This document shows, piece after piece, positions 6,102-18,061 of a stretch of 64,000 bases of DNA (its first letter is position 1; the number at the start of each line of letters is the position of its first letter). The position numbers were made by a program, and so were the translations under genes. The notes beneath the pieces are model-generated. The model made no database searches and was not told the DNA's origin. It saw only the letters and a program-made list of their open reading frames with translations. Source of the DNA: Pseudomonas putida (GTDB lineage Bacteria > Pseudomonadota > Gammaproteobacteria > Pseudomonadales > Pseudomonadaceae). Location: NCBI GenBank assembly GCA_041879295.1, contig CP047152.1, forward strand, positions 3,477,501-3,541,500, read 5' to 3'.

Positions 6102-6284
6102 TGCAATTCTCCTTGGCTGAGGCCTGCACCATGACCTGTCCCACCCTCTCGCAGATCCTCCCTCGCTGCCAGCCCCTCACCGACCCGCACATGCGCAGGA
6201 CCGACCGCTGCCAAACAACTATCTACCGCACACCGACGCCTTGATCAGCGTGGACTATCTCACTCCACAAAAGAGATGGTTACC

Positions 6285-9200
6285 ATGACAACCCCGACAC
6301 CGTTGCATCAAAGCCAGATAACCCGATCGTTACCGAAATGGAGCAAGGCGCTCCAACCCACGCATACACGCAAAGTGGTGCAGAGCCTGTACAAGGAGTA
6401 TCTCGATGAAGATGGCAGCCCTTACGCGTGGTATGCCACTGCCGATGAGCCAACGCGCGAGCAGTTGCACAACGCGTTGCAAACCCGTAACAAACGGCTG
6501 GCGCAAGTCAAGCAGGCGCTGGGCGAGTTCAAGGACATCATTGCGTTCTGCGGCCCTCTGCTGACCGAGCGGTTGGGGGTGAATGTGCCCGTAGACAGGG
6601 CGCAGTATGTGTTCCAGCCCTTTGAGTCAGAGGCCAACATCTGGGTCGGCGTTCCCGATGTGGAAACACCTTTGGTCCCGGACGTGGATGCGGATGTGCT
6701 GGCTACTCGCCCGGCAGGCCAGCCGCAAACACGCAGCTTGCTGGAGGCTGCCCTGCACAACTTCGAGGGGCTGGACGAAGTCGGCCCCTACAGCAGGCTC
6801 ACCAACGCCGCAGGCAGCGACACCCCCCTGGCAGGCCTGACGATGGCGGACTTCGTCAGGCATTGTCGGGCGCTGGACCTTGGCAAACGCTATCAAGACC
6901 ATCTGCTTGCAACCCATGAAGGCGCCAATCGCGCTGAGATCCAGCGCCTGTCGATTGCAGCGAACCGTGAGACGTTGAGGGTCCAGGCATTGATCGCCAA
7001 GCTCAAAGGCCTGCTGAGCAAGGCCGGGCTCGATGCGCTTGCGCAACTGTGCGACGGCAGCCCTCACCCCACCTATGACAACGAGGCGTTGCATTGCTGG
7101 AACTTCAACCTCTTCGATGTCCCCGTCCACGAAGTACTGTTCATTGGGCCAGACAACCCTTACCGCCAGAACCCCTGCATCGTGTATATCCCTGGCGACA
7201 GAGAGCACCCGATAAGGGAGTTCGCTTCTCGTCAGGAAGCGGGCAAGCACCTGCGCAGTCGGCTATTGCAAAGCGAGTTTCGTCGAGCCTTGGTGCATTT
7301 CGCCTACAAGGACAGGCAAAAAGAACTCGCCGGAAAGCTGGAAATCGCGCTGTTCGAAGAGAATGAAGCGGGCATACGCAAACCCCGAATCATGCCAGTG
7401 ATCCCTTTCACGCTCTCGCCAATCAGAATCGACCCTTGGGCGACCTTGTACAACGCACACCTTGCGCGCATGAAGGCCGACGCAAAAACCATTGCAGTCC
7501 CTACCGCCGAAGTCGACGCCAACGCCCGCCACGAGCGCCTGAAGTACTGGTTCGACCTGGGTATGAACGTGCTGAATGTCGCCGCGTTCTTCGTGCCGGG
7601 GCTGAACACGGTCATGCTAGGCGTTTTTGCTTACGACCTGATGAGCTCGGTTTTCACCGGGTTCGAGGCCTGGGAAGAAGGAGATACCCGTCAGGCACTG
7701 GCACAGCTGGAATCGTTGGCCATCAACGCGGGGGTGATTGCCGGCTTTGCAGCGGGCGCCAGGGTTGTCCAGGCCTCTGGCTTTGTAGATGCTTTGAAGA
7801 GTGTGTGGCATGAAGACAAGGAAGTGCTTTGGCACCCCGACATGAAACCCTATGCGAGCACGGTGGCTATTCCTGAGGGGGCTCAACCCGATTTGCTCGG
7901 CCATGTGCACGTCGACGGGAAGACCTACCTGAAGCTGGATGGGACCCTGTACGAGGTGTTTCAGGACGCTGATCAGCAGTGGCGCGTGCGCCACCCAGAG
8001 GATGCGCAGGCCTATGCCCCACGTTTGCTGCATCATGGTGATGCCCGCTGGCAACTGGCCCATGAACAGCCTCTGGAATGGGACCGCGAACAGCTCGCGC
8101 GCCGCCTCGGCAGCCATGGCGCAGGCCTGGACGACAGCGAACTGGACCATGCCATGCGCAGTACCGGTACCGATCCAGACGTACTGCGACGCGCCCAGGC
8201 AGCGGGCCTGCGTCCACCCGCCTTGTTGCTCGACACGCTGCAGCGGTTGCAACTGGACAATCAGACACAACAAATCATCAACTGTGTACGCCATGGGTTG
8301 CCGCTAGCTGCGTACAAGAACTTTGCCTTGCCCGAGTTGCTGCGCCTGCCGGGGTGGCCCGAGGGGAAGGTGCTGAAGGTTTACCAAGGGCCAGAGCCCT
8401 GGGGCGAATCGGTGCGCTACGGCCCTCCTGACACGCTGGGCCAAGTAGAAATCGAGGTTACCCGAACCGATCTGGACAATGGCCAGTTGAGCCAGACCGT
8501 GCTGGATCAGATGGATGAAGACGCCATTGAGCAGTTGCTCGGTGACACACCAACCGAGCACCGAGCGTCCGCACTGAACAACAAGCTCGCGCAACACCTG
8601 GAACAGCATCGCAAGGCGCTGTTCGAGAGCCTGCACCAAAGACGCCGTCCCACACGCCCGCCAATCGCACAAACCCTCGCCCGGCAGTTTCCCGGGCTAC
8701 CGGACAGCGCGCTTGAAGAATTGCTTGCCAACATCAGCAACGCTGAACGGGAACGCCTGACCAACGGACGGGTGCCGCTGCGCATTGCCGAGGAAGCACG
8801 CCTTCTGCAAGCTCGAGCGCGGCTTGACCGCGCCCTCCTCGGCCTGTTCAGGCCCAGCCTGGCCAACGACGACAGCCTACGCATCAAACAGGCGCTGCAA
8901 GCCACGCACCCGCAGGCTGACCCGGCCCGGTTGCTGCAACTTGCCCTTGACGATCGCCAGCACTGCGCCTCACTGATCGGCCAACAACCCATCAACCCCA
9001 GGTTCCGCTCCCCTTTGCGGTTGGCCAACGGCCAGCTGGGCTATCCCCTGAGCGGCCGTGGCCTGCAAGGACGAGCCTTGCCGGCTGCACGTCGACTCCG
9101 GGCGCTCTACCCCGAACTCAGCAGAGAGCAAATCAGTGGGCTGCAAGCCGAACTGGCTCGAGGAGGCGACCTGGGTAGCGCGATCAACCAGCTGGAAGTC

Positions 9201-11174
9201 GAGCAGCGTACCCTCAACCGGGATCTCAACCGCTGGGTAAGCACCGCCCGCACCCTTGAAGAGCGCTTTGATCGCCAGCAATGCACCGAGCGACTGATGA
9301 GTGCTTCGCGCCGTGAAGGCGGCGTGCAAGCCGAAACACTGGTTCTGGACCGAATGCAACTCGAAGCGCTACCCGCTTTCACTGCACGCATGCCGCATAT
9401 CCGCAATCTCAGGCTCGAGGGGCTGCAGATGCGGCACCTGGAGGGCAGCTTCCTGGCAAACTTCCCTAACCTGGAAACCCTGGAAATCGTCGGCAACCCG
9501 GACATCGATGCCGAAACATTGTTCGAGGCGCTCAGGTCAGCACCGCGGCTGCGCGAGCTGGGCCTGACTGACAATGGCTTGACCACCCTTTCACCCACCG
9601 CCCAACAGGCCATCGGGGCAATGCCCGGCCTGCGGCTACTGTGGCTCAGCCGCAACCGGCTGCAACTCGACACCAACAGTTTAGGCTTCCTGACGCGCTT
9701 GCCCCTGGACGCCCTCGGCCTGGGCCACAATCAAATCACCCTCGACGAAAGCCTTGCCGCCCAGTTTCAGGACATGATCCACCCCACTGTACTGCACCTG
9801 TCAGGCAACCCACTGCGACTGGCGCCCGACCTGCGCTTCATGGCGCGTCTTGTCCACCTGGAACTTGAGCGTTGCGAACTGCAGCAATGGCCCGACAGCC
9901 TGACAGTCCTGATGAGCCAGCCCCAGTACCAACTGCGCTATCTGAACCTTTCGTCCAACCGCATTCGTACCCTGCCAGACTTGCCTGGCGTGCTGCGTAC
10001 CCCTTTTGCCCGCGATGTCGCCGCGCACTTGCCGGAGCGCCGCTGGCTGTTCAACTACAACACCCTGGAAGCCCAGACTCGTGCACGCCTGGGCAGCAGC
10101 GGCGTCAACGTATTCGAGCACGCAGAAGACGTGCCACTGTGGCAAGGCATTTTCCGTGGCGAGGCGAGCAGTGCCGAGGAGCAACTGTGGAGCGACCTGT
10201 TCGACCAAGGTGAAAACGCAGCGCTGCTGGGGGTACTCGAACGCCTTGCCCAATCGGCCGAAGCGCAGCGTGATGGCGAGGCCCTGAGGGCACGCGTCTG
10301 GAAGCTGTTGGATGACGCGGCCCACGACACGGCCCTGCGTGAACGCCTCGCCACCGTGGCCGGCGACTTCCCGCCAACCTGTGGTGACGCAGGTGCCGAC
10401 GCGTTCAGTGCCCTGGAGATAGAAGTGCTGGCCCACGAAGCAGCAGCCGCCGCCGGTAGTCGACCGGCTGATCTACTGAGCCTGTATGGCAAGTTGTATC
10501 GACGCAGTCAGGTCAATCAACTGGCCGACCGCATCAGCTGGAGAAGGTCCTTGCGCAAACAGGCACTGCTCGATGGGGTCTTCGATGAAAACCTCCCCGC
10601 TTACGATGAGCTCGACGATCCCTCAGCCTTTCCAGACAGCGAACTTCAGACGGGGCTGGTGGACGATATCGAGGTACGCCTGGCCTTGCGCCAGTCCTTG
10701 GCCAGCGCGCTGGACTATCCTGAGCCGAGCCGAGGCATGCTGTACCGCCATACGGCCAGAATCAACGATACAGTCATCGAAAGGGTGCAAGCTGCGGTCC
10801 TTTCCCTGGACAGGGATGCCACCGCCCGGGAGCAATGGTTGAACCAGCAGCCGGGCTGGGCCGAGTACTTGAAACGAGAGCATGCGGCACAGTTCAGCCT
10901 GATCACCGACTTTTGGCGGCCGGGCCTTGATTATCTCTATTACTGCCTGGATGAAACCGCCGACCCGGTCACGTCCCTGGACAGCTCTGTGCTCCGAGCC
11001 TTGGCCACGGTCATGCCTGAAAGCCCTGTGGATGCTCAAGGCGTTCTGCGTCGCGTCGTGATCAACGAGCAGCAGTATCGCCAGGGCGTGGACGCGCTGA
11101 CTGCCGAGCAGCAGCAGGTTGAAACGGGTCTGCTGACCAGTCTCACCCGCCAGACGCAAACAATCGGCCGCTAA
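6285..11174 (+). CDS. Giant toxin-like protein: DUF6543-like N-terminus, leucine-rich repeats, NEL E3 ubiquitin-ligase domain
   Basis: A 1,629-residue protein. The N-terminal ~700 residues resemble the DUF6543 dermonecrotic-toxin-like region, with a hydrophobic stretch near 425-495 (VAAFFVPGLNTVMLG and following). Leucine-rich repeats occupy about 1025-1230 (LRNLRLEGL, LRELGLTDNGL, LRLLWLSRNRL, LRYLNLSSNRI). The remainder matches the NEL domain of IpaH/SspH-type ligases, including FPPTCGDAGADAF, where Cys1366 is the predicted ubiquitin-accepting cysteine with the typical Asp two residues later. NEL enzymes act on eukaryotic ubiquitin after delivery into host cells. There is no Sec signal, and no secretion-system or chaperone gene is nearby. 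The ATG at 6285 is preferred over 6276 because AAGAG is nine bases upstream. Confidence 0.9.
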   Translation: MTTPTPLHQSQITRSLPKWSKALQPTHTRKVVQSLYKEYLDEDGSPYAWYATADEPTREQLHNALQTRNKRLAQVKQALGEFKDIIAFCGPLLTERLGVNVPVDRAQYVFQPFESEANIWVGVPDVETPLVPDVDADVLATRPAGQPQTRSLLEAALHNFEGLDEVGPYSRLTNAAGSDTPLAGLTMADFVRHCRALDLGKRYQDHLLATHEGANRAEIQRLSIAANRETLRVQALIAKLKGLLSKAGLDALAQLCDGSPHPTYDNEALHCWNFNLFDVPVHEVLFIGPDNPYRQNPCIVYIPGDREHPIREFASRQEAGKHLRSRLLQSEFRRALVHFAYKDRQKELAGKLEIALFEENEAGIRKPRIMPVIPFTLSPIRIDPWATLYNAHLARMKADAKTIAVPTAEVDANARHERLKYWFDLGMNVLNVAAFFVPGLNTVMLGVFAYDLMSSVFTGFEAWEEGDTRQALAQLESLAINAGVIAGFAAGARVVQASGFVDALKSVWHEDKEVLWHPDMKPYASTVAIPEGAQPDLLGHVHVDGKTYLKLDGTLYEVFQDADQQWRVRHPEDAQAYAPRLLHHGDARWQLAHEQPLEWDREQLARRLGSHGAGLDDSELDHAMRSTGTDPDVLRRAQAAGLRPPALLLDTLQRLQLDNQTQQIINCVRHGLPLAAYKNFALPELLRLPGWPEGKVLKVYQGPEPWGESVRYGPPDTLGQVEIEVTRTDLDNGQLSQTVLDQMDEDAIEQLLGDTPTEHRASALNNKLAQHLEQHRKALFESLHQRRRPTRPPIAQTLARQFPGLPDSALEELLANISNAERERLTNGRVPLRIAEEARLLQARARLDRALLGLFRPSLANDDSLRIKQALQATHPQADPARLLQLALDDRQHCASLIGQQPINPRFRSPLRLANGQLGYPLSGRGLQGRALPAARRLRALYPELSREQISGLQAELARGGDLGSAINQLEVEQRTLNRDLNRWVSTARTLEERFDRQQCTERLMSASRREGGVQAETLVLDRMQLEALPAFTARMPHIRNLRLEGLQMRHLEGSFLANFPNLETLEIVGNPDIDAETLFEALRSAPRLRELGLTDNGLTTLSPTAQQAIGAMPGLRLLWLSRNRLQLDTNSLGFLTRLPLDALGLGHNQITLDESLAAQFQDMIHPTVLHLSGNPLRLAPDLRFMARLVHLELERCELQQWPDSLTVLMSQPQYQLRYLNLSSNRIRTLPDLPGVLRTPFARDVAAHLPERRWLFNYNTLEAQTRARLGSSGVNVFEHAEDVPLWQGIFRGEASSAEEQLWSDLFDQGENAALLGVLERLAQSAEAQRDGEALRARVWKLLDDAAHDTALRERLATVAGDFPPTCGDAGADAFSALEIEVLAHEAAAAAGSRPADLLSLYGKLYRRSQVNQLADRISWRRSLRKQALLDGVFDENLPAYDELDDPSAFPDSELQTGLVDDIEVRLALRQSLASALDYPEPSRGMLYRHTARINDTVIERVQAAVLSLDRDATAREQWLNQQPGWAEYLKREHAAQFSLITDFWRPGLDYLYYCLDETADPVTSLDSSVLRALATVMPESPVDAQGVLRRVVINEQQYRQGVDALTAEQQQVETGLLTSLTRQTQTIGR

Positions 11175-11181
11175 ACCCCAC

Positions 11182-13686
11182 TCACTGCCCGCGCAGGTCT
11201 TCGAAGAAGGCCTGCTTGCCATCCACCTGGCTGGACGCCCTTGGAGCCGCTGCGGCGTCACCGCTGGCGGCCTCCACATGCCAATAGCAGTGCCGCACTG
11301 CGCGGGTCACCGCCACGTAGGCCAAGCGCTGCACTTCGTCCTTCTGTGCCGAATCGAACGGTTGGGTATCACCTGCCTTGCCCAGCCCGGCCTGGCGGTA
11401 TACCTGGTTCTTGTAGGGTGAGCTGGTCAGGTACTGGCAGTCACCCAGCATGAACACCGCATCGGCCTGCAAACCCTTGGCACTGTGATAGGTCAGCTGA
11501 CGCAGCCGGCGCTGGTCGGCCGGCAGCGCCGCGTCGGCGTGCAACACGCTTTGCAGATGCTCGTTCATCAAGGCCCTGTCGCTGCCCTTGCGGTAGAGCA
11601 TCATGACCGTCTCTCCCCGCTGGTAGTGCTCGACAAGCGTTTCGCCCAATGCAGCCTCGTCACGGTCGAACACCTTGACCGGCGAGCTGGGCAACTCGGC
11701 CGCCGGGCCACTGGCGCGCGCTTTCTTGCCGGCAATCGCCGGGGTGCCCTTGACCAGGTGTTCGGCCGCGTCGATCACCTGCTGCTGGCATCGGTAGTTG
11801 TCGACCAGCATCACCCGCGTGTTGGCCGGCGACGGGAATGCCTTGGTGAACTCCATGAAATACTTGGGCGAGCTGCCACGCCAGCCGTAGATCGATTGCC
11901 AGTCGTCCCCCACGCACAGCAACGACGAATGCTGGGCATGGCGCCCGGTGTGCATGGCCGGGCCGCGGCGCCGTATTTCAGCGAGGCTGGCACGCAACCA
12001 GCTGACGATCTGCGGCGACACGTCCTGGAACTCGTCGATCATCAGGTGCGCCAGCGGCCGCAGCAACGGATCGGGCAGCAGGTGCAGGTTTTCCGGGTTG
12101 TTCTCGCCAAACAGGGCGAACATGCGGTTGTAGCTCATCACCGGTGGCGACTGGTCCAGCAGGTGCGCTTCCAGGGCTTTCCAGTAAAGTGCCAGGGCCT
12201 CGAAGAACAGTGCATCGCTATCGCCAGACGGGAAGCTCATCGCCGCCACCGCTTTGTTCACCTCCAACCCAAGGTTTTCGATGAAATTGGCCGCACTGAC
12301 GAACGCATCCAGCAGCGGCGCCGGGGCCAGTTCACCCTTGACCTTGTACTCAAAGCCAGGGCCGGCCACAGCATCGCCCGCCAACGATGCCGCCAGGCGC
12401 CTGGCCATGGCGTAGTTGTCGAGCCAGATCAGCGGCCTGTCGCAGAACGCCTGCAGCAGCGTGCGCTTGACCGCCCACTCGGCACGCACCGTCAGCTTGG
12501 CGCCGGGGCGCTGGTACTGCGCACTTTGTGCGGGATCGAAACCCAGCACCACCAAAGGCCCCTGGCCTTCCAGGCGGCCATGCACATAAAAGCGGCTGCC
12601 ACGGATGTCGACCGTTTCGCGGCTGGGCTCGATGCCCTTGATCGGCCAGACGCCAGCGGCGAACCACAGGTCCTCGATCACGTCGCACAGTTCTTCGTCG
12701 CGCTGGGCCGCCAATTGGGTCACCTGTGCGCGCTTCTGCACATCGGGGTTGTTCGGGTCCAGCGGCTTCAGTTGCAAGGCTTCGCTGCGCAACTGGCTGA
12801 CCAGTTCGGCAAAACGCGGGCTCTCGCCCAGCAAGCTGCTGTAGCACTGGTTCAGTTGCTGGCGCTGGGCATCGTTCAGGCGCAGGTCGAACGGGTTGCT
12901 GTCGGCCTCGGCCTCACGCCCGGCAGGCATCTCGTGGCCCAGTGTTTCAAATGCACGCACCTGGCCGAAGCCCGGCAGGCTGCGCACCAGCGGCAGGATG
13001 CGCGAATGGAACGTGCGCACCAGCTCGCGGGCCTGCACAGGCTGCAGGTTGATCTGCCACAGGGCGAACACCTGCAACAGCCGCTTGATGAAGTCTTTGC
13101 GCGATTCGCGGGTGAAGGTGACCACGGTCATCGCATCCAGCTCGTAACCCAGGTAATGACGCAGCAGCAGGATGCGCAGCACCAGCGAAGTGGACTTGCC
13201 TGCCCCGGCGCCGGCCACCACGCAGGTAGACGGGGTGTCACTGAAGATCAGCTTCCATTGCGCGGGGCTGGGCTGGGCTTCGGCAGGCAGGCGCTGGGCG
13301 ACATCGGCCTTGAAGCGCTTTTTCAACTCGGCCGTCAACGGCAGGCGCCAGTCGTCGAACAAGTTGTCATCCTGGCCTGGCACGGCGGCGCTGTCGGGGC
13401 GCGTATCGCGGATCACCAGCACCTGACGCCCAGCCTCATAGCCCTCCACCCGACCACGCTCGAACCCTTCACGCACGCCATCGGCATGGCCAGTGCGCTG
13501 GCCTGTGGCGTGGCCGAGGAACCACGAGTCGCGGTGCTGGGCTTGCAGGCGGGTCAGGCCACGGCCCAGCAGACGGGCGGCCAGCCGGCGAAACCAGGGC
13601 AACTGGGCAGGAGGGGTAAGGTCGGCGGGGGCCAGGGGTTGCTCGTGGGCCACGGTCACTCCGTTGAAAATCAAAACAGCAGGCAT
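11182..13686 (-). CDS. UvrD/Rep-family (superfamily 1) DNA helicase
   Basis: An 834-residue SF1A helicase. After an N-terminal extension of ~140 residues, motif I (Walker A) is AGAGAGKS at 158-165. Motif Ia is VVTFTRESR, motif II MIDEFQDVSPQ, motif III VGDDWQSIYGWRG, motif IV/V VDNYRC and TYHSAKGLQAD, and motif VI LAYVAVTRAV. All ATP- and DNA-contacting motifs are present, so it should be an active 3'-5' ATP-dependent helicase or translocase in the cytoplasm. The N-terminal region (basic, Gly/Arg repeats around 57-88) is not part of UvrD. It converges with the NEL gene (7 bp apart) and is transcribed away from pirin. Confidence 0.9.
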   Translation of the reverse strand: MPAVLIFNGVTVAHEQPLAPADLTPPAQLPWFRRLAARLLGRGLTRLQAQHRDSWFLGHATGQRTGHADGVREGFERGRVEGYEAGRQVLVIRDTRPDSAAVPGQDDNLFDDWRLPLTAELKKRFKADVAQRLPAEAQPSPAQWKLIFSDTPSTCVVAGAGAGKSTSLVLRILLLRHYLGYELDAMTVVTFTRESRKDFIKRLLQVFALWQINLQPVQARELVRTFHSRILPLVRSLPGFGQVRAFETLGHEMPAGREAEADSNPFDLRLNDAQRQQLNQCYSSLLGESPRFAELVSQLRSEALQLKPLDPNNPDVQKRAQVTQLAAQRDEELCDVIEDLWFAAGVWPIKGIEPSRETVDIRGSRFYVHGRLEGQGPLVVLGFDPAQSAQYQRPGAKLTVRAEWAVKRTLLQAFCDRPLIWLDNYAMARRLAASLAGDAVAGPGFEYKVKGELAPAPLLDAFVSAANFIENLGLEVNKAVAAMSFPSGDSDALFFEALALYWKALEAHLLDQSPPVMSYNRMFALFGENNPENLHLLPDPLLRPLAHLMIDEFQDVSPQIVSWLRASLAEIRRRGPAMHTGRHAQHSSLLCVGDDWQSIYGWRGSSPKYFMEFTKAFPSPANTRVMLVDNYRCQQQVIDAAEHLVKGTPAIAGKKARASGPAAELPSSPVKVFDRDEAALGETLVEHYQRGETVMMLYRKGSDRALMNEHLQSVLHADAALPADQRRLRQLTYHSAKGLQADAVFMLGDCQYLTSSPYKNQVYRQAGLGKAGDTQPFDSAQKDEVQRLAYVAVTRAVRHCYWHVEAASGDAAAAPRASSQVDGKQAFFEDLRGQ

Positions 13687-13774
13687 GTTCGCCGCATCGA
13701 CGAAAAATCGCCAGCGAATGCTTGCAGATCAGTGGATTAGGCGATGAAGCGAATAAAGCGCAGCAGGAAAAAAC

Positions 13775-13789
13775 ATCTACCAAATAGAT
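13775..13789. promoter_or_regulatory. 15-bp palindrome upstream of pirin gene (LysR-box-like)
   Basis: ATCTA-N5-TAGAT is a perfect inverted repeat containing a T-N11-A core, in an AT-rich stretch 84 bp before the pirin start. Pirin genes in Pseudomonas are often controlled by CrgA-like LysR proteins that bind this kind of site. Binding here is inferred. Confidence 0.4.
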
Positions 13790-13872
13790 TATTTTAAGCC
13801 GATATTTACGCTTATTTTCGATGTTTCTTTAGCGCATCATGGCGCCATTCCACTGATTCAAGGAGCACGACC

Positions 13873-14571
13873 ATGCTGCAACTGCGACCCTTCGAAAGCC
13901 TCGGCCACGCTAACCATGGCTGGCTCGACGCCCACCACCATTTCTCGTTTGCCGAGTACTACGACCCGGCACGCATGCACTGGGGTAACCTGCGGGTTTG
14001 GAACGACGACCTGATCGCGGCCGGCAGCGGCTTCCCGCCGCACCCGCACCGCGACATGGAAATCATCACTTATGTGCGTGAAGGCGCGATCAGCCACCAG
14101 GACAGCCTGGGCAACAAGGGCCGCACCGAAGCCGGTGATGTTCAGGTAATGAGCGCCGGTACCGGCATCGTGCACAGCGAGTACAACCTGGAGGACATCG
14201 ACACACGTATTTTCCAGATCTGGATTGTGCCGGAGCGCACCGGTGAAGCACCGCAGTGGGGTAGCCGGCCGTTTCCCAAAGGCGAGCGCGGCGAAGGCTT
14301 CGTGACCCTGGCCAGCGGCCGCACCGGTGACGAGGACAGCCTGCAGATCCGTACCGATGCCCGCCTGGTGGCTGCCACCCTGCAGGCAGGTGAAACCGCC
14401 GAGTACCGCTTCGATGCCGCACGCCGGGGTTACCTGGTGCCGGCCAAGGGGCTGGTGGAAGTCAACGGGCTGCGGGCCAAGGCGCGCGATGGCGTGGCGA
14501 TCGAGCAGGAAGCGGTGCTGCGGGTGACCGCCATCGAGGACAGCGAGATCGTGCTCGTGGACGTGGCCTGA
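13873..14571 (+). CDS. Pirin-family protein (bicupin; YhhW/quercetinase-like)
   Basis: A 232-residue bicupin of normal YhhW length. The N-terminal cupin carries the pirin metal ligands PPHPHRDME (His57, His59 region) and GTGIVHSEYN (His and Glu). YhhW-type pirins show quercetin 2,3-dioxygenase activity in vitro, and other pirins act as redox sensors. The ATG has GGAGC about eight bases upstream. The gene stands alone; it is divergent from the helicase with 186 bp of AT-rich spacer holding a LysR-box-like palindrome. Cytosolic, no signal peptide. Confidence 0.88.
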   Translation: MLQLRPFESLGHANHGWLDAHHHFSFAEYYDPARMHWGNLRVWNDDLIAAGSGFPPHPHRDMEIITYVREGAISHQDSLGNKGRTEAGDVQVMSAGTGIVHSEYNLEDIDTRIFQIWIVPERTGEAPQWGSRPFPKGERGEGFVTLASGRTGDEDSLQIRTDARLVAATLQAGETAEYRFDAARRGYLVPAKGLVEVNGLRAKARDGVAIEQEAVLRVTAIEDSEIVLVDVA

Positions 14572-14611
14572 ACATCCGGCCAGGGATAATCCATATCGCA
14601 GTGCAAGGCTG

Positions 14612-14651
14612 CCCCCATAGACCAACCCGGTTTAGCAGGGTTTTGTGGGGG
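14612..14651 (+). terminator. Stem-loop after pirin gene
   Basis: CCCCCA pairs with TGGGGG and an inner AACCC pairs with GGGTT, forming an interrupted hairpin 40 bp downstream of the pirin stop. There is no clean T-tract, so it may be a weak terminator or a degenerate repeat. Confidence 0.35.
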
Positions 14652-14777
14652 CTGGCTTGCGGCCCTGGACCGCCCCGGCTATCGCAAGGTAGCCATCAAA
14701 CATTGGCGCCATCAGCCAGCCTGCACTAGCGTTGTGCTACCAGCCAGCCCAACGTTCCTGCGGAGCACTCGATCATC

Positions 14778-17549
14778 ATGCCGGACCTGCGCCCGAATCC
14801 AACGCTGTGCCTGGAGTACCGTGCCGAACAACCCATTCACCACGCCTTCATCAAGCAGGCCGACCGCTGCCCGGCGGCCATTGCCATCATTGGCCAGCAC
14901 ACAATCTGCAGCTATTCCCAACTGGAGCAGATCAGCGCGGGCATTGCCGCGTTTCTGGTTAAAAACGCCGCCAGCGGTACCGATCGTGTAGTCATCGTCA
15001 CCCACCGCAGCGCCGCCCTGGTGTACGCCATGCTCGGCTGCCTGCGTGCCGGCCTGGCCTTCACTGTGGCTGACGCCGCTTACCCTGCCGCGCGTATCGA
15101 GCAAATCGTCAGCACCCTGAAGCCTGCGGTGGTCCTGCGCTGTGCCGAGGCAACCGTCGACGTCGGCCAACCCATGGTCGTCACGGTGCCTGAAGCCCCC
15201 GCTGAAGCGCTGCTGGCCTTCCCTCGCCAACCTGTCGCGCTGCCTGCTGTCAGCCCTGAGCAGGCGGCCTACATCACCTTCACCTCGGGCAGCACCGGTG
15301 AACCCAAGGGCATCGTTACCCACCACGCACCGCTGGTGCACTTCATCGACTGGCATGTGCGCCAGCACGGCTTTACCCAGGCCGACACCTTCTCGCTGCT
15401 TTCTGGCCTGGGCCACGACCCGGTATACCGGGACGTGTTCACGCCACTGTCGCTTGGCGCGACCATTGCCTGCCCGGCGCAGTCGACCCTGACCGACCCC
15501 TCACGGCTAGCCAGCTGGCTTCACCAGCACGGTGTGAGCGTGATCCATCTCACCCCGCCGCTGGGCAAGCTGATCGAAACTGGCGCACACCTGAACGGCC
15601 AGGTTCTCGACCACCTGCGCTACCTGTTCTGGGGTGGCGATGCACTCAGCCCGACGCAGTACCAGCAGGTCCGCGCCATCGCACCGAATGCCATCAATGT
15701 GAACTTCTACGGCACCACCGAAACCCCACAGGCCATGGCTTTCCACACCCTCGACCCGGAAATGGATAATGCCCGGGTGCCCCTGGGCAAAGGCATTGCC
15801 GATGCACAATTGCTGGTGATAAACCCAGACAACCAGCTGGTCAGCGAGGGCGAGACAGGCGAAATCCTGATCCGCAGCCCCTATCTGTCACGGGGTTACT
15901 GGGGCGACCCAGGGCTGACCGAAGCCAAATTCATCGCCAACCCGTTCACCGCTGACGCGGCCGACCGCTGTTATCGCACGGGCGATCTAGGCACCTACCT
16001 GGCCGATGGCAGCGCCAGTTTTCTGGGGCGCGCTGACAGCCAGGTGAAGATCCGTGGGCATCGCATCGAGCTGGCGGAAATCGAGAACGCCATCTGCCGT
16101 CACCCGCACATAGGGCAATGCGTGGTCCTGGCCAACCACGACAGTGCATCGACCCGGCTGGTTGCCTATTGCGTCGCACAGCAGCCCACCCGAGCTGACG
16201 AACTGCGCCAGACGCTCGCCGGCCAGCTGCCTGACTACATGGTACCGGCGCTGTTCGTGTTCCTTGATACCCTGCCGCTCACCCCCAACGGCAAGGTCGA
16301 CAAACGCGCGCTGCCTGCTGCATTTGACGACAGTATCAACCTACCCTTGTCACCCCTGGCCGAAAAGCTGAGTACAGCCTGGGCACGCATCCTCCAGGTG
16401 CCGCGCCTGGACGCCAGGTTGAGCTTTGTCGAGCTGGGCGGCGACTCGCTGTCGTTTGTGCAGGCCTCGCGCGTGCTCGAGGCGCTCATCGGCCACCTGC
16501 CTGAACGTTGGGAAACCCTGCCGGTGTGCCAGCTGGCCGAGCTGAGTACGCCGCCCAAGGGCACGTGGCGGGTAATGGAAATGCCGGTGTTCATACGCAT
16601 GCTCGCCATCATCCTGATTGTGGTCGGCCACCTGGGCGAGTTCGACCACTGGATGATCGTCGGCGAAACCTCGGTGCTGTTCCTGGTCTCTGGCATCGCC
16701 CTGGCGCGCTTTCAGCTCAAGGCCATCGAAACGCGCGGTGATGCACGCACGCTGCTCACGTCACTGGCAGCCATCGTGGTGCCAACACTGCTGTACACCG
16801 CATTGATCCAGCTGGTATTCGACCGCCTGCACTGGCAATCGCTGCTGCTGGTTTCCAACTGGTTCCCCGCCAGCGAGGTCAGCCTGTTCAACTATTGGTA
16901 CATCGAAGTGTTGGTGCAGATGATCGTGATCATTAGCCTGGTGCTGTCGATCAGGCGCGTGCGCCAGGTGCTGCTTGCCGACCCGTTTCGCTGGCTGATC
17001 ATCGCTGCCTGTGCACTGGTGGCGCTGGATGTGTTCCTCAACCAGTTCGTATTCGATGCCAGTGCCCTGCTCAACCGGGTTCCTCAGCACTTCCTGGCGG
17101 TGATGGTGCTGGGCATGGCCGTGCACCATGCCGATACGGCCTCACGCAAATGGGTGGCCAGTGTGGTGGCCGTGCTGGTGGTGGGTGAGCTGGACCTGAT
17201 GGCGGTTGCCCATGTTGGCTGGCAAGCCTTGACACACTATGTCGACATCGCCCTGCCAGCGATACTGGCGCTTGTCTGGTTCCGCTCGGTGCCAGTGCCC
17301 GCCCTGGTTGCACGGGCAGGTACGGTGATCGCTTCGTCAACCTTGTATATTTACTTGACGCATTTCCAATTCGAATCGGTAGCGGAGCATGTTTTCAGGC
17401 ACCCGCTGTTCGAGGTGGCCCTGGCACTCGCTGGTGGTGTACTGGTGAGCTATTGCTGGAACACCCTGTTGCGTCTGCTGTTTACCCGCAGGCGCAAGCA
17501 GCACCAGGCGCCGGAAGCCGATCCAGCTGAACGCGTCACCTCTGCCTGA
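14778..17549 (+). CDS. Single-protein NRPS-like fusion: Lys2-type adenylation domain, carrier domain, acyltransferase-3 membrane domain
   Basis: A 923-residue three-part protein. Residues ~20-510 are an adenylation domain with TFTSGSTGEPKG, NFYGTTETPQ, YRTGDLG and NGKVDKR motifs. The core LSGLGHDPVYRDVFTPLSLGA (around Asp214) resembles the A domain of fungal alpha-aminoadipate reductase Lys2 more than ordinary NRPS modules. Asp214 aligns with the acidic residue that holds the substrate amino group in amino-acid-activating A domains. Residues ~530-600 are a carrier domain with the phosphopantetheine Ser557 in LGGDSL. Residues ~610-900 form about ten membrane helices of the acyltransferase-3 family (VGHLGEF, YIYLTHF). 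There is no condensation, reductase or thioesterase domain. The design suggests activation, tethering and transfer of one acyl or aminoacyl group to a membrane or exported acceptor, as DltA/C/B do with three proteins. Confidence 0.9.
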   Translation: MPDLRPNPTLCLEYRAEQPIHHAFIKQADRCPAAIAIIGQHTICSYSQLEQISAGIAAFLVKNAASGTDRVVIVTHRSAALVYAMLGCLRAGLAFTVADAAYPAARIEQIVSTLKPAVVLRCAEATVDVGQPMVVTVPEAPAEALLAFPRQPVALPAVSPEQAAYITFTSGSTGEPKGIVTHHAPLVHFIDWHVRQHGFTQADTFSLLSGLGHDPVYRDVFTPLSLGATIACPAQSTLTDPSRLASWLHQHGVSVIHLTPPLGKLIETGAHLNGQVLDHLRYLFWGGDALSPTQYQQVRAIAPNAINVNFYGTTETPQAMAFHTLDPEMDNARVPLGKGIADAQLLVINPDNQLVSEGETGEILIRSPYLSRGYWGDPGLTEAKFIANPFTADAADRCYRTGDLGTYLADGSASFLGRADSQVKIRGHRIELAEIENAICRHPHIGQCVVLANHDSASTRLVAYCVAQQPTRADELRQTLAGQLPDYMVPALFVFLDTLPLTPNGKVDKRALPAAFDDSINLPLSPLAEKLSTAWARILQVPRLDARLSFVELGGDSLSFVQASRVLEALIGHLPERWETLPVCQLAELSTPPKGTWRVMEMPVFIRMLAIILIVVGHLGEFDHWMIVGETSVLFLVSGIALARFQLKAIETRGDARTLLTSLAAIVVPTLLYTALIQLVFDRLHWQSLLLVSNWFPASEVSLFNYWYIEVLVQMIVIISLVLSIRRVRQVLLADPFRWLIIAACALVALDVFLNQFVFDASALLNRVPQHFLAVMVLGMAVHHADTASRKWVASVVAVLVVGELDLMAVAHVGWQALTHYVDIALPAILALVWFRSVPVPALVARAGTVIASSTLYIYLTHFQFESVAEHVFRHPLFEVALALAGGVLVSYCWNTLLRLLFTRRRKQHQAPEADPAERVTSA

Positions 17550-17584
17550 GCGAAGATGAGCCGCCACCCCATGCGCTACTCTTG

Positions 17585-18061
17585 TCAGGCCAGTTCGGCC
17601 AGCACCTCGGCCGAGGTGGTGACCTGCCGGAAGTGGTGCTTCCACAGGTCGGTACCCAACTTGCCCGAGCGGTCCAGCGATGACCCTATTGTCATGTCTG
17701 TCACCAGCGTGGGCATCAGCCCTGCGTCGAACAGGGCAAAGCCTGCGGCCAGCACGCAGGTTTCGGTCTGCAACCCGCACACCAGCACCCGCTCTACACC
17801 CAGTTGCCGGATGTAGTCGATAGCTTCGGCACTTTGCCCATAGCCATGCTTGACGAACACCTGGTCGGCCTCGACCAGGCTCTCGTCCTCGGCCGCCGGG
17901 TGCCAGCCAAGCTGGCGCTCGAACGGCGTGATCTGTTCATCGTGCAACTCGACCGAGGCTATGGTGGGAATGTTCGCTGACAACCGGCGCAAACCATCGA
18001 CCAGCCACTCGGGCGGGCTGAAGGTGGACTGAACATCGACGATGAGCAAAACCTGGCGCAT
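17585..18061 (-). CDS. Isochorismatase-like cysteine hydrolase
   Basis: A compact 158-residue member of the cysteine hydrolase superfamily (isochorismatase, nicotinamidase and relatives). The catalytic triad can be placed at Asp in LIVDVQ (residue ~9), Lys in VFVKHGYG and Cys in LQTETCVLAAGFALFD. The length is shorter than the usual 180-210, fitting the small YcaC-like members. The substrate is unknown; the family hydrolyses amides and vinyl ethers. It converges with the adenylation-fusion gene (35 bp apart), so it is not in the same operon. Confidence 0.82.
   Translation of the reverse strand: MRQVLLIVDVQSTFSPPEWLVDGLRRLSANIPTIASVELHDEQITPFERQLGWHPAAEDESLVEADQVFVKHGYGQSAEAIDYIRQLGVERVLVCGLQTETCVLAAGFALFDAGLMPTLVTDMTIGSSLDRSGKLGTDLWKHHFRQVTTSAEVLAELA

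Follow-up and report, generated by a model that had tools for sequence, protein, structure and literature searches.

A Pseudomonas gene joining adenylation, carrier and acyltransferase-3 domains, and a possible carrier-fed branch of membrane acyltransferases

The 64,000-nucleotide stretch of the Pseudomonas putida genome analysed here (contig CP047152.1, positions 3,477,501 to 3,541,500; hereafter, the window) contains a gene, flanked by a pirin gene on the same strand on one side and by a convergent gene of the isochorismatase family on the other, that encodes an adenylation (A) domain, a carrier (T) domain and a membrane acyltransferase-3 (AT3) domain in a single chain (Table 1). We analysed this A-T-AT3 protein and its relatives with respect to the substrate pocket, the motifs of the membrane domain and the genomic context. 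With a probability of roughly 57%, we consider it a carrier-coupled membrane acyltransferase, in which an acid activated by the A domain would be passed from the carrier through the membrane domain to an acceptor on the outer face.

A Pfam search (hmmscan) with the 923-amino acid protein identified AMP-binding (residues 26-375, 218.8 bits), AMP-binding_C (434-506, 53.3 bits) and PP-binding (529-569, 23.8 bits); the above-cut-off PF00550 match, together with the serine of a GGxS motif (Ser557), characterizes the carrier as one of the non-ribosomal peptide synthetase (NRPS) type. PF01757 was not among the whole-protein matches at 1e-3, and the protein is therefore a divergent member of this family, which was recognized with 38.7 bits (cut-off 31) at the place of the gene in a genome search and is precomputed for many close relatives. 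Condensation, reductase and thioesterase profiles were absent (Pfam, E<=1e-3). An earlier note, made from the letters of the sequence alone, had proposed this composition, including the positions of Asp214 and Ser557 and the lack of the latter three parts, and the profile searches bear it out. After residue 600, hydropathy and an AlphaFold model of the whole protein (mean predicted local distance difference test (pLDDT) score 78.1, predicted template modelling score 0.58, 78 rows) agree on ten to twelve helical segments. The modelled A domain superimposes on GrsA PheA (1amu) over 513 columns with a TM-score of 0.82 by target length, and no solved structure is closer to the protein than NRPS A domains in general. 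A sequence search for solved structures of AT3 relatives returned none at E<=1, and a fold search of viral models placed AMP-binding enzymes on top, with no protein named AT3 among the 50 matches listed. The family alignment comprises 148 distinct full-length sequences (from 150 rows) that are 59-95% identical to the window protein, and Asp214, Pro215, Arg218, Lys506, Ser557, Pro575, Trp578, Arg607 and His618 are invariant in all of them.

Table 1. Features of the A-T-AT3 locus, in window coordinates (TM1 and TM3, first and third transmembrane segments; ORF, open reading frame)
Feature	Position	Strand	Evidence and remarks
A-T-AT3 gene	14778..17549	+	923-amino acid ORF; annotation of relatives: 'amino acid adenylation domain-containing protein'
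Adenylation (A) domain, residues 26-506	14853..16295	+	Pfam matches; TIGR01733 366.7 bits, cut-off 317.4
Pocket residues Asp214, Pro215, Arg218 (first three of DPRHFGFQAK)	15417..15431	+	Alignment-derived code; invariant in 148 distinct sequences
Carrier (T) domain, about residues 529-590	16362..16547	+	PF00550 23.8 bits, cut-off 20.8, match 529-569
Ser557, expected phosphopantetheine site (LGGDSLSF)	16446..16448	+	Invariant in 148/148 and in the 61-row superfamily alignment
Pro575-x-x-Trp578, conserved T-to-AT3 link	16500..16511	+	Invariant columns in the 61-row alignment
Membrane acyltransferase-3 (AT3) domain, about residues 598-905	16569..17492	+	PF01757 38.7 bits, cut-off 31; 10-12 helical segments in the model
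Arg607-x10-His618, AT3 catalytic motif in TM1	16596..16631	+	148/148; motif according to PMC9833829
Place of the AT3 TM3 RXXR; reads LTSLAAIVVP, motif absent	16755..16784	+	Alignment with other AT3s
Conserved upstream box TTGGCGC-N14-CACTAGC, probable promoter element	14703..14730	+	14/30 loci, same 14-nucleotide spacing

The A domain belongs with the amino acid-activating enzymes. It exceeds the cut-off of the amino-acid A-domain model TIGR01733 by about 49 bits (Table 1), and the equivalents of the NRPS residues Asp235 and Lys517 are Asp214 and Lys506 in all 148 family sequences. Among the best 25 of 104 models, the highest scores for acyl-CoA (coenzyme A) ligases are 192.3 bits (cut-off 592.35) and 182.1 bits (cut-off 476). 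In a 44-row tree, the window domain forms one clade with a Pseudorhodobacter A domain (support 100/100); this clade belongs to 32 rows of NRPS, stand-alone and Lys2-like domains, which separate (100/99) from the 10 acyl-CoA synthetases taken from this genome and from two A domains of a second type, described below. Six stand-alone rows of the tree were retrieved with the DltA model, none of them above its cut-off. An acyl-CoA synthetase, the identity that the earlier note had named as fatal to its own proposal, is rejected by the TIGR01733 score and the tree.

The same note had likened the core around Asp214 to alpha-aminoadipate reductase (Lys2), and the likeness holds. The Lys2 model, TIGR03443, is the highest-scoring NCBIfam model of the equivalog type among the best 25 of 104, with 326.3 bits on the whole protein and 213.6 on the A core, both below the Lys2 cut-off of 1030.1, and at E<=1e-40 it is absent from all four NRPS A domains examined from the same genome. 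The pocket code derived from the alignment is DPRHFGFQAK (DMRHFGFQAK in Pseudorhodobacter), the beginning of which, DPRHF, would match a Lys2 code of DPRHFVMRAK. Unlike Lys2, which carries a reductase at its C-terminus, the window protein has no reductase domain in Pfam and ends in AT3. In the lysine-activating Pls_A, the residue at Asp+4 (Glu217, following D213) forms a salt bridge with the side-chain amine of the substrate at the base of the pocket, according to PMC11253843. Because Arg218 occupies this position in the window protein, the pocket suggests an acidic substrate, with alpha-aminoadipate or glutamate as the first candidates.

The membrane domain retains one of the two hallmarks of its family and lacks the other. 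AT3 proteins are reported to provide acyl-CoA with a pore (PMC12423673; PMC9833829) and to share two conserved motifs, R-x10-H and the RXXR of TM3, all four residues of which are reportedly essential in OafB and others; in simulations of OafB, Arg74 of RXXR contacts the 3'-phosphate of CoA (PMC9833829). The window protein resembles AT3s of the OafB type in its R-x10-H, which is present in TM1 (Arg607/His618) of all 148 family sequences and, by pattern, in 25 of the 26 fused A-T-AT3 proteins compared below, the exception (L092) having Lys for Arg. It differs from them in its fused carrier and in the missing TM3 motif, where the OafB type uses an acyl-CoA donor and a conserved RXXR (PMC9833829). 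None of the 148 sequences has an RXXR in the 18 residues before Pro669. A strict pattern, RXXR[ILVA]xP, was found in 0/26 fused rows versus 20/29 rows of other AT3s taken from 8 genomes, and a looser test, which admits any RXXR with its first Arg 4-8 residues before the Pro669 column, in 0/26 versus 22/29. Among the seven other AT3 rows that fail the looser test, one (L152) is a misread frame of 72 amino acids with an RXXR in another reading.

The combination of carrier and AT3 extends well beyond Pseudomonas. With only the AT3 part as query, 7 further genomes among 398 of the phylum were recovered (six frames of 869-944 amino acids and one of 342), along with 85 plasmid records, with 31 annotated as 'AMP-binding protein' among the best 40 of 85. 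When 26 fused proteins were sorted by alignment and by their A3-A4 cores, three types of A domain were found to precede one T-AT3 unit. Seven fusions, from Pseudomonas and Pseudorhodobacter, have the Lys2-like type; 17, from Rhizobium, Leisingera, Rhodococcus, Mycolicibacterium, Arthrobacter and other genera, have a type with the motif YGLSVxxSHL; and two, from Paracoccus zhejiangensis and Novosphingobium (L084 and L085), have a type with a shortened N-terminal part. Outside the A domain, Ser557, Pro575, Trp578, Arg607 and His618 are among the residues invariant over a 61-row alignment, in which the third type is represented by one row only. The row that pairs with Pseudomonas in the AT3 tree is L090, which has an A domain of the second type (support 82 in the Shimodaira-Hasegawa-like approximate likelihood ratio test, SH-aLRT), and the closest A domain to the Pseudomonas type is that of Pseudorhodobacter. 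Because the two partners differ, this comparison suggests that the loading domains in front of T-AT3 were exchanged. The arm-plus-membrane unit may thus be a reusable module, possibly independent of the usual acyl-CoA donor. In the annotation of Rhizobium bangladeshense (L089, 8424-11035), the A-T-AT3 gene is divided into two neighbouring ORFs, with the break inside the A domain.

Separate versions of the unit also exist. The only non-fused AT3 among the seven phylum genomes (L096, 9255-10271; the same gene as L155 and L174) overlaps, as called, by 8 bases the end of a gene for a 655-amino acid AMP-binding protein, the C-terminus of which (AGGDSLSYM...VPEGW) forms a carrier that shares the P-x-x-W link. 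In Sphingomonas hankookensis (L177), a relative of the L096 AT3 has R-x10-H and no RXXR before its C-terminus, and its gene overlaps the preceding gene for a 125-amino acid protein ending in TDSLSFVNAS...IPPRW. Pfam recognizes no domain in the latter protein, which is therefore called carrier-like on the motif alone.

These observations fit a mechanism in four steps. The A domain would adenylate an acid such as alpha-aminoadipate, glutamate or a related dicarboxylic acid, with Asp214 contacting the amino group, Lys506 the activated carboxylate and Arg218 the second carboxylate. A thioester bond would then join the acid to the phosphopantetheine arm carried by Ser557. The cytosolic T domain would presumably dock on AT3 so that the arm is pushed up the AT3 pore, in the way proposed for the arm of acyl-CoA in ordinary AT3s. 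Finally, Arg607 and His618 would catalyse transfer to an acceptor expected at the outer face; an envelope glycan, a lipid or an exported small molecule would most likely offer the hydroxyl or amine that is modified. At the level of sequence, the one-protein machine for activation, tethering and transfer that the earlier note envisaged is real, and its interpretation as a whole is partly supported. The exchangeable loading domains, the AT3 without the TM3 RXXR, the split version and the actinobacterial pairing with a ferric-type transporter (see below) go beyond it.

Several known systems share parts of this design. In the D-alanylation of teichoic acids, an amino acid is likewise activated, tethered to a carrier and moved by a membrane acyltransferase to an outside acceptor, but DltA, DltC and DltB are three proteins, the amino acid is D-Ala and the transferase is an MBOAT instead of an AT3; the DltA model TIGR01734 gives 249.7 bits on the window protein against a cut-off of 559.85. 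The AlmE-AlmF-AlmG system, which places glycine on the lipid A of Vibrio, also relies on an A domain that activates an amino acid for lipopolysaccharide modification, but it consists of separate proteins and uses an unrelated transferase. The epsilon-poly-lysine synthetase Pls and the delta-poly-ornithine synthetase have A, T and a membrane part in one chain, and the A domain of the latter is among the structural matches (8g97); their membrane part, however, is a polymerising unit outside PF01757, and Pls has Glu in place of Arg at Asp+4. DltB is assigned to the MBOAT proteins in PMC9558356, and DltA and AlmE, the latter as an A domain activating an amino acid for lipopolysaccharide modification, are covered in PMC11253843.

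More generally, the balance tips slightly towards T-AT3 being an undescribed module, that is, a branch of AT3s fed by a dedicated loaded carrier rather than by CoA, which would have shed the CoA motif of TM3 upon fusion and would occur with exchangeable loading enzymes, in fused, split (A-T plus AT3) and carrier-like plus AT3 forms, in Proteobacteria and Actinobacteria, and in polysaccharide and iron settings. Such a branch, if real, would widen the chemistry placed outside the membrane to amino acids and dicarboxylic acids and would explain how charged groups could be delivered by one self-contained gene. It also makes the proposed AT3 mechanism testable: if RXXR holds the 3'-phosphate of CoA, AT3s fused to a carrier should be able to dispense with it, and the fused sequences agree. 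By word search, neither PMC9558356 nor PMC12423673 mentions an AMP-binding partner of AT3; PMC9558356 mentions a carrier protein twice and phosphopantetheine never, and PMC12423673 has no mention of phosphopantetheine, carrier protein, AMP-binding or non-ribosomal. Another acyltransferase, AimS (PMC13345540), also came up among the papers on AT3s. We found no known product or title for the A-T-AT3 architecture in a limited literature search, which does not establish its absence from print.

A number of observations weigh against a carrier-fed acyltransferase. The AT3 of the split L096 pair retains RFAR at about the place of the TM3 motif, with no Ile-x-Pro after it, which weakens a simple link between carrier and motif loss. 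Loss of RXXR is not exclusive to carrier-linked AT3s, since six others (L144, L146, L154, L165, L169 and L171) lack it and have neither an A-domain nor a carrier motif in their loci. Among the fused rows, 9/26 have an RXXR farther out, in the preceding loop 11-17 residues before Pro, and those from Rhodococcus and Arthrobacter retain an Arg four residues before Pro. The 26 fused AT3 rows fall on one branch with an SH-aLRT of only 85; the tree was a quick one and included a number of rows that are misread or long. Modelled alone, the AT3 domain scores poorly (pLDDT 46.7), and in fold searches the matches are taken up by the A domain. On the side of the substrate, the 44-row tree includes no fungal Lys2 and no true DltA row, and the resemblance of the pocket to the Lys2 code, taken as DPRHFVMRAK, is tentative.

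In Pseudomonas, the gene is accessory and stands alone. Full-length A-T-AT3 was found in 24/298 sampled genomes at 60-100% identity, the genome of the window included; the remaining matches, among those listed, span the A and T part only. The plant-associated P. capeferrum WCS358 also has a homologue. A class-wide search with the whole protein matched 1/369 sampled genomes at 1e-95, which is the window's own. Thirty Pseudomonas loci sort by shared immediate neighbour into 13 groups (the largest with n=10), most neighbour genes being without domain annotation; a conserved operon partner is thus rejected, and the earlier description of the neighbours as not biosynthetic stands. The upstream box (Table 1) is spread over 4 of the 13 groups; its pattern has one forward match in the whole genome, as does a backwards control pattern. 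Taken together, the gene is solo and accessory, and it seems to have moved together with its promoter region. Four of the loci without the TTGGCGC box (L056, L060, L063 and L065) share a second upstream sequence, CTCGTATNGAT, then NNNNCGGAG at the ribosome site. A phage origin was considered and rejected, with no megablast match in a phage collection. The suggestion of a housekeeping acceptor fares less well: the modification is optional, since the gene is accessory, although the lack of a partner gene moving along with A-T-AT3 is a reason why the acceptor itself may be common.

The main acceptor variant of the carrier-coupled acyltransferase, which we hold tentatively, is an envelope glycan acylase, with an exopolysaccharide, O-antigen or periplasmic glucan as acceptor and the acid adding negative charge. 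Glycosyltransferases and a bacterial sugar transferase lie near the split L096 pair, as in an exopolysaccharide cluster, and known AT3s acylate surface sugars (PMC9558356), but no recognizable glycan operon adjoins the fused Pseudomonas versions, where most neighbours lack domain annotation.

Less probable, though a metal role is possible, is a metallophore maker, which would join the acid to a soluble acceptor and release the resulting small iron-binding molecule instead of decorating the envelope. An ATP-binding cassette transporter with substrate-binding protein, permease and ATPase adjoins the A-T-AT3 gene in 8/10 actinobacterial plasmid loci examined (after the gene in Rhodococcus, 5/5; before it in Mycolicibacterium, 3/3; Arthrobacter/Pseudarthrobacter, 0/2), and the binding protein of R. 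opacus is closest, among solved structures, to the ferric-binding SfuA, YfuA and others (1xvy, E 7.6e-136). However, the actinobacterial A domains are of another type, these loci are related rather than independent, and NCBIfam matches of the binding protein and permease are all below cut-off, to phosphonate, sulfate and other transporters. Genes for an extracytoplasmic function (ECF) sigma factor, FecR and a TonB receptor follow directly in 6/30 Pseudomonas loci (in L044 after a single intervening gene; domain content was checked for L039 and L044), and lie 2.2 kb behind the carrier-like/AT3 pair on the Sphingomonas plasmid (L177, 12199-16218). The six Pseudomonas loci represent one genomic site and five genomes carry 8-40 FecR genes each, so that such neighbours are common and this iron link is weak; in the window, no iron gene adjoins. 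Just behind the pirin gene, window positions 14579-14597 (+) match a Fur-box consensus at 13/19, above all 50 shuffles, but the other 21 of the 22 upstream regions scanned (of 30) reach at most 10/19, no better than shuffles, and Fur regulation was rejected.

A truncated or stray NRPS module with AT3 as a passive membrane anchor is very improbable: a link to NRPS exists on a Pseudorhodobacter plasmid (L071), where a condensation-domain ORF (10667-11869) directly precedes A-T-AT3 (11869-14703), but the catalytic residues of all three domains are unchanged across the 148 distinct family sequences, which would not be the case for an anchor or relic.

Some minor features of the loci deserve mention. 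The L071 pair is flanked on both sides by transposase-like ORFs, as judged by eye. The site between the pirin and isochorismatase genes varies among strains (window 14571-17585 and L039-L054), and it is here that the FecI-FecR-TonB genes stand directly behind A-T-AT3 in six. Elsewhere in the window (6276-11174, +), a gene encodes a 1632-amino acid protein with a ToxA_N domain, leucine-rich repeats and a C-terminal NEL (novel E3 ligase) domain, which looks like an injected or secreted effector.

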